64,000 nucleotides of DNA from Candidatus Endolissoclinum faulkneri L2. GTDB taxonomy: Bacteria; Pseudomonadota; Alphaproteobacteria; Thalassobaculales; Thalassobaculaceae. The stretch covers positions 537,015 through 601,014 of the forward strand of contig NC_019566.1 of the NCBI RefSeq assembly GCF_000319385.1, written 5' to 3'. The position numbers and the translations under genes are program-made. Shown here in pieces: positions 16,910 through 27,485 of this stretch (the stretch's first letter is position 1; each line of letters opens with the position of its first letter). Under the pieces are notes generated by a model, which worked only from the letters and a program-made list of their open reading frames with translations, was not told the origin of the DNA and did no database searches.

Positions 16910-17449
16910 TTAACGAGCAATTGTTGTAGTGCGGCGGATTTTTCGTTGAAGTTGCATAATGCCATACAACAAGGCTTCGGCTGTTGGTGGACAGCCTGGC
17001 ACATAAATGTCTACCGGCAAGATTCTATCGCATCCTCGCACAACTGAATAGGAATAATGGTAATATCCACCACCATTAGCGCAAGAACCCATGGATATTA
17101 CCCATCGCGGTTCAGCCATTTGGTCGTAAACTTTGCGCAATGCTGGCGCCATTTTATTAGTTAACGTACCAGCGACAATCATAACATCAGACTGGCGTGG
17201 CGAAGGACGAAAAATGATACCGAAGCGATCTAAATCATATCGGCTTGCCGCTGTGTGCATCATTTCAACTGCACAGCACGCCAGACCAAAAGTCATCGGC
17301 CAAAGTGAACCAGTACGTGCCCAATTAAAAAGCTTGTCAAGCTGGGTAACAAAAAATCCCTTGTGTTGTATTTGTTCACCAACGCTGGACAGGACAAGAT
17401 CCTGATTATTATCAGTTGGAATTAAATCGCTGGATGGCATTACTCCCAT
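16910..17449 (-). CDS. nuoB: NADH-quinone oxidoreductase subunit B
   Basis: 179 aa subunit carrying cluster N2, the last iron-sulfur cluster before quinone. The ligands are the tandem Cys in [10 protein letters not shown], the Cys in M-G-S-C-A-N-G-G, and V-P-G-C-P-P. The frame is open 37 codons further upstream inside nuoA, but that part is nuoA read out of frame. I chose ATG 17449 because GGAG lies seven bases before it and the protein then starts as NuoB usually does. The gene overlaps the end of nuoA by 10 bases. Confidence 0.95.
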
Positions 17450-17805
17450 TCTAAAGCTCCTTTCTTCCATTCGTAGATGAATCCTACTGTCAGAATAGCA
17501 AGAAAAACCATCATCGACCAAAACCCAAATGAACCAATGTTTGAAAGCGAAATTGCCCAAGGGAATAAAAAGGCTACTTCAAGATCGAAAATAACAAACA
17601 AAATAGCGACCAAATAAAAACGTACGTCAAATTGCTGCCTAGAATCATCAAAAGCTTCAAAGCCACACTCATAGGCAGAAAGTTTTTCTGAATCAGGACG
17701 TCGAACACCAATAACAAGAGACAATATGAGCAGTACAATCGATAATACTATAGATAACATGATTAGCATTAGTATAGGAAGGTATTCAGTCAAAGTGGAT
17801 TTCAT
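17440..17805 (-). CDS. nuoA: NADH-quinone oxidoreductase subunit A
   Basis: 121 aa with three membrane helices. The conserved Y-E-C-G-F-E loop between helices 1 and 2 (near residue 45), then [22 protein letters not shown], identify NuoA. It is the first gene of the minus-strand operon running to rnj, so its promoter should lie in 17806-18028. No clear -35/-10 pair is evident there. Confidence 0.97.
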
Positions 17806-19728: not shown

Positions 19729-22143
19729 TCAGTGCGTCACTATATTTTTTACGCATTCAAAAGTTATCGGTTTTGATAAGTTTTCTATACTAGAATTGTC
19801 TGAAGATATGTTTGTAGTATTAATTGGCACTGGTTGTGTTGTCAGGGCTTGTTCAATTACCTCGTCAACTGTCGAAACTTGAATAATATCCATAGCTTGC
19901 TTGACATTATCTGGAATTTCCGCCATGTCTTTGTCATTTTCTTTAGGAATCAATATGGTTTTTAGACCACCTCGTAAAGCAGCGAGAAGCTTTTCTTTTA
20001 ATCCACCTATCGGTAATACTCTACCTCGAAGTGTTATCTCTCCGGTCATAGCTAAATCCCTACGTACTGGAATACCAGTTAGAACAGACACTATGGAAGT
20101 AACCATAGCCACGCCTGCCGACGGCCCGTCTTTTGGAGTCGCACCTTCTGGTACGTGAACATGTATATCGCAATCTTCAATAACTCTAGGTTGAATTCCA
20201 AAGGTAAGCGATCGGGATTTTACGAATGACTCAGCTGCTTGAACTGATTCTTTCATCACATCACCAAGTTTACCAGTAGAAGTTACTTTACCCTTACCAG
20301 GCAAAGTCAAAGCTTCAATCGACAAAAGTTCGCCACCAACTTCAGTCCAGGCTAGACCAGTGGTAACACCTATCATGTCAGACTCTTCTATCTCGCTGGA
20401 GCGATATCGACGTACACCTGCAAAATCTTCAAGATTTTCCAGGGTAACAGATACCTCTTTCTTATCATTCTGTAAAATTTCTTTAACCGCTTTACGAGCT
20501 AGATTGGCCAGCTCACGTTCCAAATTACGCACGCCAGCTTCGCGAGTGTAATAACGTATTAGGTCGTACAGAGCTTCATCAGAGATTGTCCACTCATCTT
20601 TTCTTAAGCCATGATTTTCAACTTGCTTATCGATTAGATGATGACGCGCGATTTGCGCCTTATCATACTCAGTGTAGCCAGAAAGCCTGATAATCTCCAT
20701 GCGGTCAAGCAACGGCTGCTGCATTCGAAGAGTATTTGCGGTAGTAATAAACATCACTTCTGAAAGATCATAATCTACTTCGAGATAATGATCTTGGAAA
20801 CTATTATTTTGTTCTGGATCAAGTACCTCTAGAAGGGCTGAAGATGGATCACCTCGATAGTCTTGACCAAGCTTATCGATCTCGTCAAGTAGAAATAACG
20901 GGTTAGAAGTTTTAGCCTTCTTCATACCTTGAACGATCTTACCTGGCATAGCGCCTATATAAGTTCGTCGGTGACCTCGTATTTCAGCCTCATCGCGCAC
21001 TCCGCCAAGAGACATACGAACAAAATTGCGACCAGTTGCCTTAGCAATTGATTTACCAAGTGAAGTTTTGCCAACGCCTGGAGGACCAACTAAGCACATT
21101 ATAGGACCTTTTATTTTCCCCACTCTAGCTTGAACTGCAAGGTATTCTAGTATTCTTTCCTTAATTTTTTCTAAACCATAATGGTCGGAATCAAGTACCA
21201 CTTCTGCATGAGAGAGATTGCTTTTTATCTTGGAACGTTTTTTCCAGGGAACATTAACTAGCCAATCAAGGTAGTTACGTACCACCGCCGTTTCAGCGGA
21301 CATTTGACTCATGTTACGGAGTTTTTTGAACTCCTGAACAGCTTTTTCCTTGGCTTCTTTAGAGAATTTGGTCTTGTTGATTCTCTCTTCTAACTCAGAC
21401 AGGTCATCGCGCCCCTCATCAGTTTCTCCTAGCTCTTTCTGAATAGCTTTTATTTGCTCATTAAGATAATATTCGCGCTGAGTTTTTTCCATCTGCCGCT
21501 TCACTCTAGTGCGAATCCGCTTCTCCACTTGGAGAACGCTAATTTCACCTTCCATAAAGCCGTAAACACGTTCTAAACGATCCATTACCCCAACACTTTC
21601 TAGAAGCTCTTGCTTGTCAGAAATCTTTAAAGCAAGATGCGATGCAATCGTATCCGCAAGTCGTGCAGGGTTTTCTATTTGGTTCACAGACATTAGTACT
21701 TCGGGTGGAATTTTTTTATTGAGCTTTATGTATTGCTCAAATTGACTAATTACTGCACGAGACAAGGCTTCAACTTCTTGCTTATCTCCCTCATCTTCCT
21801 CTATAACTTCTGCTTCAGCTTCAAAGAAAGCTACATTGGAAGTGTAGCGGTGAATTTTCGCTCTACTCCCCCCCTCAACTAAGACCTTTACTGTTCCATC
21901 CGGGAGTTTTAAAAGCTGCAAAACAGTACCTATGGTACCAATTTGATATATATCATCTGGTGCAGGATCGTCGTCGGCAGCATTACGTTGAGTTACGAGC
22001 AGAATCTTTTTATTATCACTCATAACGTCTTCGAGGGCCCGCACAGACTTGTCTCGCCCTACAAAGAGCGGTACAATCATATGCGGAAACACTGCGATGT
22101 CTCGGAGCGGTAGGACTGGGTAGACCTCGTTTCCTGCGGTCAC
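19729..22143 (-). CDS. lon: ATP-dependent protease Lon
   Basis: 804 aa from the chosen start. It degrades misfolded and short-lived regulatory proteins in the cytoplasm. The N-terminal substrate domain begins Y-P-V-L-P-L-R-D-I. The AAA+ module has Walker A G-P-P-G-V-G-K-T (near 330), and the protease domain has the catalytic Ser in P-K-D-G-P-S-A-G and the Lys in G-G-L-K-E-K. The frame is open from a GTG at 22224, but that codon has no ribosome binding site. GTG 22143 has CGAGGG eight bases upstream and gives a normal N-terminus. A structured leader precedes it. Confidence 0.95.
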   Translation of the reverse strand: MTAGNEVYPVLPLRDIAVFPHMIVPLFVGRDKSVRALEDVMSDNKKILLVTQRNAADDDPAPDDIYQIGTIGTVLQLLKLPDGTVKVLVEGGSRAKIHRYTSNVAFFEAEAEVIEEDEGDKQEVEALSRAVISQFEQYIKLNKKIPPEVLMSVNQIENPARLADTIASHLALKISDKQELLESVGVMDRLERVYGFMEGEISVLQVEKRIRTRVKRQMEKTQREYYLNEQIKAIQKELGETDEGRDDLSELEERINKTKFSKEAKEKAVQEFKKLRNMSQMSAETAVVRNYLDWLVNVPWKKRSKIKSNLSHAEVVLDSDHYGLEKIKERILEYLAVQARVGKIKGPIMCLVGPPGVGKTSLGKSIAKATGRNFVRMSLGGVRDEAEIRGHRRTYIGAMPGKIVQGMKKAKTSNPLFLLDEIDKLGQDYRGDPSSALLEVLDPEQNNSFQDHYLEVDYDLSEVMFITTANTLRMQQPLLDRMEIIRLSGYTEYDKAQIARHHLIDKQVENHGLRKDEWTISDEALYDLIRYYTREAGVRNLERELANLARKAVKEILQNDKKEVSVTLENLEDFAGVRRYRSSEIEESDMIGVTTGLAWTEVGGELLSIEALTLPGKGKVTSTGKLGDVMKESVQAAESFVKSRSLTFGIQPRVIEDCDIHVHVPEGATPKDGPSAGVAMVTSIVSVLTGIPVRRDLAMTGEITLRGRVLPIGGLKEKLLAALRGGLKTILIPKENDKDMAEIPDNVKQAMDIIQVSTVDEVIEQALTTQPVPINTTNISSDNSSIENLSKPITFECVKNIVTH

Positions 22144-22207
22144 GTTAATTGCCCTCGATAATAAGCGTTCCCCTCGCGATGTACAACATCGTAGCGCTTC
22201 ACGAGGG
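22141..22207 (-). promoter_or_regulatory. Structured leader over the lon start, possible translation switch
   Basis: In the mRNA, CCCTCG (22207-22202) can pair with either of two identical CGAGGG copies. One is at 22176-22171, stacked next to a CGATGT/ACATCG hairpin (22191-22186 with 22182-22177). The other is at 22157-22152, the lon ribosome binding site. The second pairing is helped by AAGCG/CGCTT (22199-22195 with 22167-22163). The leader is unusually GC-rich for this genome. If translation really starts at 22224 the region is coding instead. Confidence 0.45.
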
Positions 22208-22272
22208 TCATGAACAATGCGCACGAAACATATTAGGTGGCGCGCGACACCCTAAGGATCAAGACTTTTGAT

Positions 22273-23541
22273 TTACACACCAGTGTTTGCTTCTTCGGAA
22301 CGTTCTCCATAAACAAATATTGGCTTGCCATTTGCAGCAATCACATCAGCATTTATGATAATTTCTTCAACATCCTCTGCGTTCGGTAGATCATACATTA
22401 GATCAAGCAAGATACTTTCCAGTATCGATCGCAGACCACGAGCACCAGTTTTTCGCTCGATAGCCTTCTGTGCGATAGCACACATAGCATCATCGCGAAA
22501 CTCAAGCTTTACGTTTTCCATTTCAAACAGCTTTTGATATTGCTTGATTAAGGCATTCTTTGGCTTAGTAAGAATCTCGATTAATGCTGATTTATCCAGA
22601 TCTTCAAGTGTTGCTAAGACGTGCAATCGGCCGACAAACTCAGGTATTAAACCAAATTTAAGCAAATCATCTGGTTCGATATCTTTTAATATTTCGCTTG
22701 TACGACGATTATCTGCTGGTCGGATATCAGCTTCAAATCCAATCGAAGAATCCTTAGAAATAATCTTTTCTATTCCATCAAAAGCACCACCACAAATAAA
22801 CAAAATGTTAGTTGTATCTACTTGCAAAAATTCTTGCTGAGGATGCTTGCGCCCCCCCTGGGGAGGCACACTAGCAACAGTACCTTCCATAATTTTCAGC
22901 AGAGCTTGCTGAACTCCTTCGCCCGATACGTCACGGGTTATTGAAGGATTATCCGATTTGCGACTAATTTTATCTACCTCATCGATATATACAATACCGC
23001 GCTGAGCTCTGTCAACGTTATAATCAGCAGCCTGAACCAGCTTAAGTATTATATTTTCTACATCTTCACCTACATAACCGGCCTCGGTTAAGGTAGTAGC
23101 ATCTGACATCGTAAATGGTACATCAATGATTCTGGCTAAAGTATGAGCAAGCAAAGTCTTGCCGCAACCTGTTGGACCAATTAGCAAAATATTTGACTTT
23201 GCCAGCTCAACGTCGTTGTTTTTTTGGCTGTGCTTAAGACGTTTATAATGATTATGCACAGCTACAGCAAGTATGCGTTTAGCTGTAGACTGACTTATCA
23301 CATAATCATCAAGCACTTGACAAATCTCTTGAGGAGTGGGAACGCCATCACGGGACTTAATTAGTGTTGTCTGATGTTCCTGGCGAATAATTTCTGTACA
23401 TAAATCGACGCATTCGTCGCAGATAAATACAGTCGGTCCAGCGATTAGTTTGCGTACCTCGTGCTGACTCTTTCCGCAGAATGAGCAGTACAAAGTACTC
23501 TTAGATTCGCTGGAGTCTTTGCCGCTAGCAGGCTTGTTCAT
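22273..23541 (-). CDS. clpX: ATP-dependent Clp protease ATP-binding subunit ClpX
   Basis: 422 aa. ClpX unfolds proteins and feeds them to ClpP. The N-terminal zinc domain has C-S-F-C-G-K (near 20) and C-D-E-C-V-D-L-C (near 41). Walker A is G-P-T-G-C-G-K-T, Walker B is [10 protein letters not shown], and R-K-T-G-A-R-G-L-R near the end is the sensor-2 region. AGGG stands about nine bases before the ATG. It lies between clpP (upstream) and lon (downstream). Confidence 0.97.
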
Positions 23542-26291: not shown

Positions 26292-27311
26292 TTTTCCAAA
26301 ATAAAGCTACTTTTATTTTGAATGTGATGCGTAGTTATCTACTGATATAGCAAGGAGATGATTTTCTCATTTTTTAGCATAATGACCCATTTTTAGACAA
26401 AATCAACAGATATGAATTTAATTAATCAGCAATTTGTTTTGTACAATCATTTTAGTTATATCAAAATTTTAATCATCACTTTAAAAACATTTAATGTATT
26501 TGATGAAATAAAAAATAATTACACTATACATTTTAGTTGATTTAAAACTAATTAAAGCCTTATTGCTTAAAATAAGTATAATTAATGCATAGTATTTTTA
26601 ATAAAACGCAACATTTTTTATAAAAAATAAAAGCACAATAACATTCGTAGTTGAGATACTCAATAATTGTTAAATTAACTAAGAATTATTTATTAATAAT
26701 GAATATGATATTCTAAAAAATATATATGTTTTCGTTTAACGATACATTTTAAATTTTTTTTACAAAACTATTAACCTATATCGCTATCATAAATCTACAC
26801 TAGTGGTTAATCAAGTAATAGCCTTAAAATATTTTTTCTTAATTAAAGATGAATTAATTTTTTTTGTAAGATTTGATCAAATTTTGTATTAATAAGTTGC
26901 AAAATGCTTAATTCCTAAACCTTTTTGTCAAAAAATATTTTAGTGTGTCGAACTCTGTCCTTGTTTGTCGGATTAGTAGAATATTTTTACCGTTTTATGG
27001 AAACATAAAAATGCTCCACATTTCCTGAAAATTATATTGCTCGCTAGAAATTTAGTACTTTGGGTGAACTACAAAGAAGGATGACATGAGGATTTATAGT
27101 GATTATGCTATATATTAGGTAAGTTAATTTTGCTTGTTGATTACTAGCTAAAAATTACTTTCCACTTGATTTTTTTCCTAAAAATACTCACCTTACCGGG
27201 TAACTTGGTTAGATGATTTTTATGCACCATTTTGAGTGTTGTATTATCGATAGCTATGAAGAAAATCTGTAATTTTTATCTGATTAAACCAAGCTGCGAA
27301 AATTTTTGTAC
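26292..27311. other. Non-coding stretch upstream of ccoS
   Basis: 1 kb of very AT-rich DNA. ccoS normally follows ccoI (the copper-export ATPase for cbb3 assembly), often with overlap, so this is where ccoI could have been. I find no P-type ATPase motif on either strand. In the ccoS frame a stop at 27285 directly precedes nine sense codons, too little to call a remnant. Confidence 0.5.
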
Positions 27312-27485
27312 ATGATAATATTATCGATACTAATTCCTGCAGCCCTGGCTCTTGGTTTGATTGGACTCTTAGCTTTTCTTTGGGCTCTTAGATCAGGGCA
27401 ATTTGATGATTTAGAAGGAGCTGCGGAACGCATTTTGCTGCCGGATAACTATATCACAGATAATTCAAGTGATCTAAAAAAGTAG
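27312..27485 (+). CDS. ccoS: cbb3-type cytochrome oxidase assembly protein CcoS
   Basis: 57 aa, the normal size. CcoS is needed to insert haem b and copper into the cbb3 oxidase. It has a single membrane helix (about residues 4-27) ending in the family signature L-W-A-L-R-S-G-Q-F-D-D-L-E-G-A-A-E-R-I-L. The gene lies about 3.9 kb before ccoN and is separated from ccoNOPGH by pyrC and folE. No ribosome binding site precedes its ATG. Usually it follows ccoI, which is absent here, so its translation may once have depended on coupling. Confidence 0.93.
   Translation: MIILSILIPAALALGLIGLLAFLWALRSGQFDDLEGAAERILLPDNYITDNSSDLKK

Follow-up and report, generated by a model that had tools for sequence, protein, structure and literature searches.

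The leader of the lon gene in Candidatus Endolissoclinum faulkneri L2 very probably contains a real RNA element, an H-type pseudoknot that, judging from the sequences, is conserved in the lon leaders of free-living relatives. The leader lies on the minus strand of a 64,000-nucleotide (nt) stretch of the genome (contig NC_019566.1, forward-strand positions 537,015 to 601,014), which we call the window and whose numbering is used throughout. Computation established that the leader is homologous between genera, that both of its helices covary and that purifying selection on it is strong. Our best overall explanation, which we consider probable, is that the pseudoknot is a cis-acting RNA; it may act on the stability of the lon mRNA, on ribosome standby, or on both. 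A first-pass annotation, made from the letters of the window, had proposed a bistable leader that can hide the lon ribosome binding site (RBS). Its placement of the lon start, its view that the leader is under selection and its CCCTCG/CGAGGG (22171–22176) helix stand, whereas the bistable switch is not supported.

The leader is under strong purifying selection amid decaying non-coding DNA. Between the L2 genome (G000; 1,481,191 bases) and its sister strain (G001; 1,518,636 bases), positions 22144–22272 are 92.2% identical in aligned columns (88.7% counting gaps) at a GC content of 0.49, compared with 54.8–70.2% identity (48.1–62.0% counting gaps) and a GC content of 0.25–0.34 in five neighbouring spacers, and with 82.5–89.6% identity in four neighbouring coding regions. 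Among 438 half-overlapping 82-nt segments without coding mask, taken across the 64 kb and compared with the sister strain, identity is highest (0.927; median, 0.732) in the leader and an overlapping segment, and no others have a GC content of at least 0.45; some of these nominally non-coding segments are coding, at 17561–17805 (in a 121-amino-acid open reading frame (ORF), 17440–17805) and at 27306–27485 (a 59-amino-acid ORF), and both rank below the leader. The first-pass annotation had described the leader as less AT-rich than other non-coding DNA and had seen in this a hint of selection; a GC content of 0.51 against a median of 0.26 confirms the former, and the top identity rank bears out the latter. 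The published genome description (PMC3851785) gives genome sizes of 1.48 and 1.51 Mbp for strains L2 and L5, describes the intergenic DNA of the symbiont as extremely degraded, names Thalassobaculum litoreum as its nearest characterised species, and reports the absence of ftsZ and, in strain L2, also of dnaA. With non-coding DNA decaying and its survivors likely functional, the two symbiont strains form a clean test case, and the comparison of such strains offers a simple route to regulatory RNAs in reduced genomes.

Predicted crossing helices in the lon leader

The gene and the four strands of the two pseudoknot helices, S1 and S2, lie as follows:

19729–22143, minus strand: lon, with a GTG start (first base 22143); NCBIfam endopeptidase La TIGR00763, 985.5 bits
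22215–22223, minus strand: S1 5' strand TGCGCATTG, with standard pairs at 7 of 9 positions in L2 and 8 of 9 in the sister strain
22202–22207, minus strand: S2 5' strand CCCTCG, inside the S1 loop, with 6 of 6 pairs in all 11 sequences aligned
22193–22201, minus strand: S1 3' strand TGAAGCGCT, pairing with 22215–22223
22171–22176, minus strand: S2 3' strand CGAGGG, corresponding to GGGGG(A/T)GG in free-living core relatives

S1 and S2 cross (alignment columns 4–12/27–35 and 21–26/57–62), an arrangement that is by sequence an H-type pseudoknot. For comparison, we collected lon leaders from 31 of 36 genomes of the family, which equals the order in the genome set used. Four genera (g1, g3, g5 and g6; the core) provide 11 leaders that can be aligned over the leader, nine from free-living bacteria and two from the symbiont genomes. 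The nine free-living leaders share GTGCGCAGGGT..CATCCCCCGCCCTGcGTGAC...GGGGGaGGCGCTT...GAGGCCA..GACGTG, in which S1 is formed by CGCAGGG/CCCTGCG and S2 by CCCCC of the S1 loop with the downstream GGGGG. The symbiont S2 (22202–22207/22171–22176) is the first of the two pairings proposed in the first-pass annotation.

A covariance model built from the nine free-living core leaders, containing S1 only and no symbiont genome, recovered the lon leader as the best match of each symbiont genome (L2, E 1.6e-6; sister strain, E 4.8e-5), in the same register and with a 2-nt insertion. In the 11-row alignment, 98.2% of the pseudoknot cells are paired (S1 97.0%, S2 100%) and two-sided changes are present at 5 of 15 pairs. 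Of 500 shuffles, none matched the covariation score, the share of paired cells or the number of two-sided pairs, and 6 matched the number of pair types; versions of the pseudoknot slid to other positions reached at most 65.5% paired cells and two two-sided pairs. In both symbionts, a C-G pair of S2 is replaced by U-A; because S2 was absent from the model, neither this change nor the complete pairing of S2 is an effect of fitting. We also exchanged pairing partners among 11 lineages, a test that is free of alignment columns. The energies of own partners summed to −185.5 for S1 (−137.6 when permuted; 0 of 50,000 permutations as low) and to −131.4 for S2 (−107.4; 1 of 50,000), and since rows within clades are related, these fractions are not strict probabilities.

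The pseudoknot layout is common to five genera, one of which has a different S1 sequence. In that genus, g2 (five genomes), S1 reads for example GGCTG..CCGGG/CCCGG..CAGCC in one case and CGGTT..CCGGG/CCCGG..AATCG in another, with one two-sided C-G to U-A change, and S2 is kept as UCCCC/GGGGA despite the differing S1 letters. Among four g2 rows, own S1 partners beat the other assignments (2,072 of 50,000 as low, with a floor of about 1 in 24). Duplex energies are −13.7 to −18.9 kcal/mol (S1) and −12.3 to −14.7 kcal/mol (S2) in the nine core relatives and −18.4 to −21.3 and −9.0 to −10.9 kcal/mol in g2; in the single g4 genome, the energies point to the same layout (S1 −12.7, S2 −10.4). A pseudoknot scan covered 41 of the 127 leaders collected; in 16 of the 31 family leaders, no more than 3 of 60 shuffles scored as high as the best pseudoknot. 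Model matches with E 5e-5 or better were confined, in the 36 family genomes, to the 11 core lon leaders; the best of the weaker ones (E 9.8e-4; G020 contig 281, 10236–10307, L143) lies on another contig than the lon of that genome. A search of 385 genomes of the class gave matches in 14 that lie outside the family, at E 0.005–0.046, where about 19 are expected at the cut-off of 0.05, these E-values being rough. On a Lon tree of 30 rows with g4 unlabelled, the pseudoknot label needs two changes, either one gain and one loss or two gains, so that the pseudoknot may or may not be ancestral to the whole family.

Several results count against a conserved pseudoknot. Covariation is visible for both helices across the core alignment and the partner swaps and is not visible within the nine free-living core leaders alone, which show one-sided changes or unpaired cells that shuffles equal; two-sided changes appear only with the addition of the symbiont genomes or g2. 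The 11-row alignment was fitted to S1, which the model contained. The swap test weakens for S1 with one row per divergent lineage (six lineages; 327 of 50,000) and for S2 in the core only (3,297 of 50,000), and the column counts of g2 are weak (101 of 500 shuffles as high). The free-living-core model does not find the g2 leaders, so the case for a common origin of the g2 form is one of position and layout. In the scan, the g4 score is marginal (6 of 60 shuffles), no significant pseudoknot was found in 14 leaders of g7–g11 (6 to 55 of 60 shuffles), 3 of 10 outgroup leaders also pass with another geometry, and the top pick in two g2 leaders used promoter sequence. Nested minimum folds of 12 leaders contain S1 mostly or fully in seven, S2 in two and neither in three, the two symbiont genomes being among these three. 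Finally, S1 of L2 has two mismatches, and a fold that captures the RBS competes with it.

Promoter and predicted starts of transcription and translation

Upstream of S1 lie the following features:

22234–22240, minus strand: −10 element CCACCTA, 17 nt after the −35 element
22258–22263, minus strand: −35 element CTTGAT in a putative promoter of the heat-shock (RpoH, sigma-32) type, with CTTGA at the matching place in relatives
22273–23541, minus strand: clpX, the upstream neighbour of lon (NCBIfam clpX TIGR00382, 643.3 bits)

The promoter, CTTGAT-N17-CCACCTA, spans 22263–22234 on the minus strand and is near, not identical, to the RpoH consensus, which is of the CTTGAA-N16/17-CCATnTA type. By eye count, 26 of 28 family lon leaders have CTTGA at the corresponding position (the exceptions are L022 and L027), and the −10 element of relatives with the pseudoknot is CCACCTA, CCACTTA or CCATTTA, with CCACTTG in G009. 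The L2 genome encodes rpoH (TIGR02392, 361.3 bits, above cut-off), and its groES has a similar CTTGAC..TTACAT. S1 starts 5–10 nt behind the −10 element in 10 of the 11 leaders measured (10 nt in L2) and 14 nt behind it in g4, and is therefore near the expected transcription start, which for lon is predicted at about 22226–22233. The distance from the end of S2 to the start codon is 24–30 nt in the core, 16 nt in g2 and 13 nt in g4, and the proximal Shine-Dalgarno (SD) sequence of the core leaders lies outside the pseudoknot.

The conserved block adjoins a conserved promoter, and the promoter spacer of the sister strain forms an inverted repeat with S1, features that would suit a DNA operator or an extended promoter rather than an RNA structure. 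We regard such an origin as highly improbable, because two crossing helices that both covary are not predicted by a single palindromic operator, and because conservation extends to the start codon. The inverted repeat of the sister strain (L003) is a perfect 7-bp one, AGCGCTC/GAGCGCT (22241–22257 with 22215–22225), both parts of which differ from the L2 genome as if they had changed together; through it, read-through transcripts from clpX might disrupt S1.

Translation of lon most likely starts at GTG 22143. In the L2 genome, the frame upstream of this codon stays open as far as a GTG at 22224; each of the five other genomes of the genus has a stop that closes the frame, and no ATG, GTG or TTG lies between. 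The closed frame supports the start at 22143, as the first-pass annotation had it, and because of the stops we rejected the mechanical ORF from 22224, in which Lon would be extended at its N-terminus across the leader. In genus g3 (L008, L010 and L112), an in-frame TTG five codons before the GTG and 7 nt behind GGAGG is a possible alternative lon start; g1 and g6 have no such TTG. The lon leaders of g2 (L013 and L015–L018) contain a possible mini-ORF, TTG-AAA-GAC-TGA, behind GGGGAGCGAG, which overlaps the lon ATG (TGATG) in five of five leaders. Elsewhere in the window, the 59-amino-acid ORF at 27306–27485 (plus strand) lies in a stretch conserved between both symbiont strains and resembles what we take to be CcoS, a cbb3 oxidase maturation protein.

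Predicted folds that reach the ribosome binding site

In the first-pass annotation, CCCTCG was thought to swap between two CGAGGG copies and thereby hide or expose the lon RBS in response to temperature or a ligand. The additional elements of this proposal are:

22152–22157, minus strand: second CGAGGG, containing the proximal SD sequence; homologous to GAGGCC of core relatives and hence itself not a conserved S2 partner
22195–22199 with 22163–22167, minus strand: AAGCG/CGCTT helix
22177–22191, minus strand: inner hairpin CGATGT (22186–22191)/ACATCG (22177–22182), between S1 and S2; not conserved

All the pairings that it named are present on the minus strand. Pairing alone is nevertheless weak evidence, because the minimum free energy of the leader is unexceptional (z −1.41; 17 of 200 shuffles fold equally well) and a 6-nt inverted repeat is expected by chance (72% of 20,000 mononucleotide shuffles of the 129-nt leader, or 1.3% when two downstream partners are demanded); conservation therefore had to decide.

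Nested folding of the L2 leader gives the RBS-capturing fold as the one of lowest energy. With the folds evaluated on their own, it is lower than the RBS-free fold at 37 °C (−18.8 versus −14.5 kcal/mol) and at all six temperatures tried between 15 and 50 °C. The sister strain keeps the sequences, AAGCG/CGCTT having become AGGCG/CGCTT with a G-U pair, but its minimum-energy fold is a different one. The pairing that captures the RBS amounts to −10.8 kcal/mol in the two symbiont genomes and to only −2.1 to −0.3 kcal/mol in all 14 free-living leaders compared. In the 11-row alignment, the two helices of this fold have 69.4% of cells paired and show no two-sided change (500 of 500 shuffles as high), and the RBS pairing did not stand out in the partner swap over 11 lineages (6,671 of 50,000 as low). 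Heating from 5 to 50 °C changes the mean unpaired probability from 0.39 to 0.32 in the SD region and from 0.25 to 0.34 at the start codon in a nested model that is blind to pseudoknots, so that SD exposure is nearly flat in this ensemble and has no thermometer profile. The inner hairpin, supposedly kept by both folds, has an energy of −4.8 kcal/mol in the L2 genome and 0.0 in the sister strain, where it does not fold, and no consistent fold was found at its place across the 11 leaders; a conserved inner hairpin was accordingly rejected. A bistable switch is thus extremely unlikely to us, with strong RBS pairing in the two symbiont genomes alone among 16 leaders and no covariation; in the energy model, the extra pairing is energetically possible and may be a lineage-specific feature of the symbionts.

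An RNA thermometer, in which heating melts S2 or S1 and so uncovers the upstream part of the region where the ribosome lands, would befit a heat-shock gene with a heat-shock-type promoter. Thermometer helices are weak and mismatched, whereas the S1 and S2 duplexes of the core and g2 are strong, so that by their calculated energies the helices of the relatives look too strong for an easy thermometer; with the proximal SD sequence outside the pseudoknot as well, we judge this mechanism very unlikely. Because the helices are strong and the SD sequence lies outside, our preferred reading is a constitutive 5'-terminal element rather than a thermometer or a switch that hides the RBS.

Candidate roles and comparison with known systems

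We propose that the heat-shock (RpoH) transcript would begin at S1 or no more than a few bases from it, that the S1 hairpin would then form, and that the C-rich stretch of its loop would pair with the downstream G-rich, SD-like stretch to give S2. Folding of this kind in cells is predicted from the aligned leaders. The pseudoknot would end 16–30 nt before the start codon (13 nt in g4), with the SD sequence and the start codon in the linker behind it. It would seal the 5' end and so slow the decay of the heat-shock mRNA, and/or it would dock the 30S subunit or protein S1 beside the open RBS as a standby site. We put this stability or standby role forward tentatively, at slightly less than even odds.

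Alternatively, the pseudoknot could be a regulated sensor, stabilised or opened by a small molecule or a protein and thereby setting Lon translation in the manner of SAM-II or preQ1-II. The loop and S2 sequences of the nine core leaders (TCCCCCG, GGGGG and GGCGCTT) are indeed conserved beyond the needs of pairing, and every clade with the pseudoknot has an S2 3' strand that is rich in G and resembles an SD sequence. However, S2 of the core ends too far from the start codon for a normal SD sequence, with a separate GAGG nearer to it, lon is not a metabolic gene, and beyond the core lon leaders the model gave only weak matches in the 36 family genomes, so there is no regulon to name a ligand. 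At permissive thresholds, Rfam gave no match to the leader in the window or in the lon loci of eight relatives; the matches otherwise were to tRNAs only, apart from an rnk-leader match below threshold in L018 (24.7 bits against a gathering score of 55), located outside the lon leader. On this ground we rejected a known RNA family, and there is no sign of a known ligand-binding RNA for the ligand switch of the first-pass annotation. Altogether, a sensor seems rather unlikely. We likewise rejected a repeat or mobile palindromic element: an 80-nt query from the leader has a single match in its own genome, and the leader falls in none of the repeat families listed for the window (20 of the 43 direct families, 25 of the 46 inverted pairs).

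Control of Lon, a central stress protease, would gain a further layer from a conserved leader RNA; no lon leader pseudoknot was described in the titles and opening abstract lines of the literature searched, from which subscription journals are mostly missing, and the word 'lon' does not occur in the main text of PMC7247131. It is an unlikely prospect that the element represents a new class of regulatory RNA, a lon-dedicated 5'-terminal pseudoknot in an alphaproteobacterial order that sets the protease level by sensing a ligand, a protein or the state of the ribosome. If so, it would have been kept even in a symbiont that, according to the genome description cited above, lacks ftsZ and, in L2, dnaA.

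Known systems resemble the leader in part. SAM-II and preQ1-II are H-type pseudoknot riboswitches whose 3' strand carries the RBS, and the lon leader is like them in being a leader H-type pseudoknot with an SD-like 3' strand of stem 2; it differs in its lack of an Rfam match, in its gene context and, in the core, in the distance of the SD-like strand from the start. ROSE and fourU RNA thermometers likewise sit in the leaders of heat-shock genes, but the lon leader matches neither in Rfam and has strong crossing helices outside the proximal SD sequence. 5' stem-loops protect mRNAs such as ompA; the likeness to these is one of position only, a structure at or near the 5' end, since the lon element is a pseudoknot and not a simple hairpin. 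In the tisB mRNA of Escherichia coli, a 5' pseudoknot has been proposed to be required for binding of the 30S subunit and protein S1 (PMC7708055). There, in a toxin-antitoxin setting, the RBS is sequestered and the standby region is 100 nt upstream of it, whereas the RBS of lon is within about 30 nt and the gene encodes a heat-shock protease; the likeness of the lon leader to the tisB +42 mRNA is that of a 5' pseudoknot and a proposed standby site.
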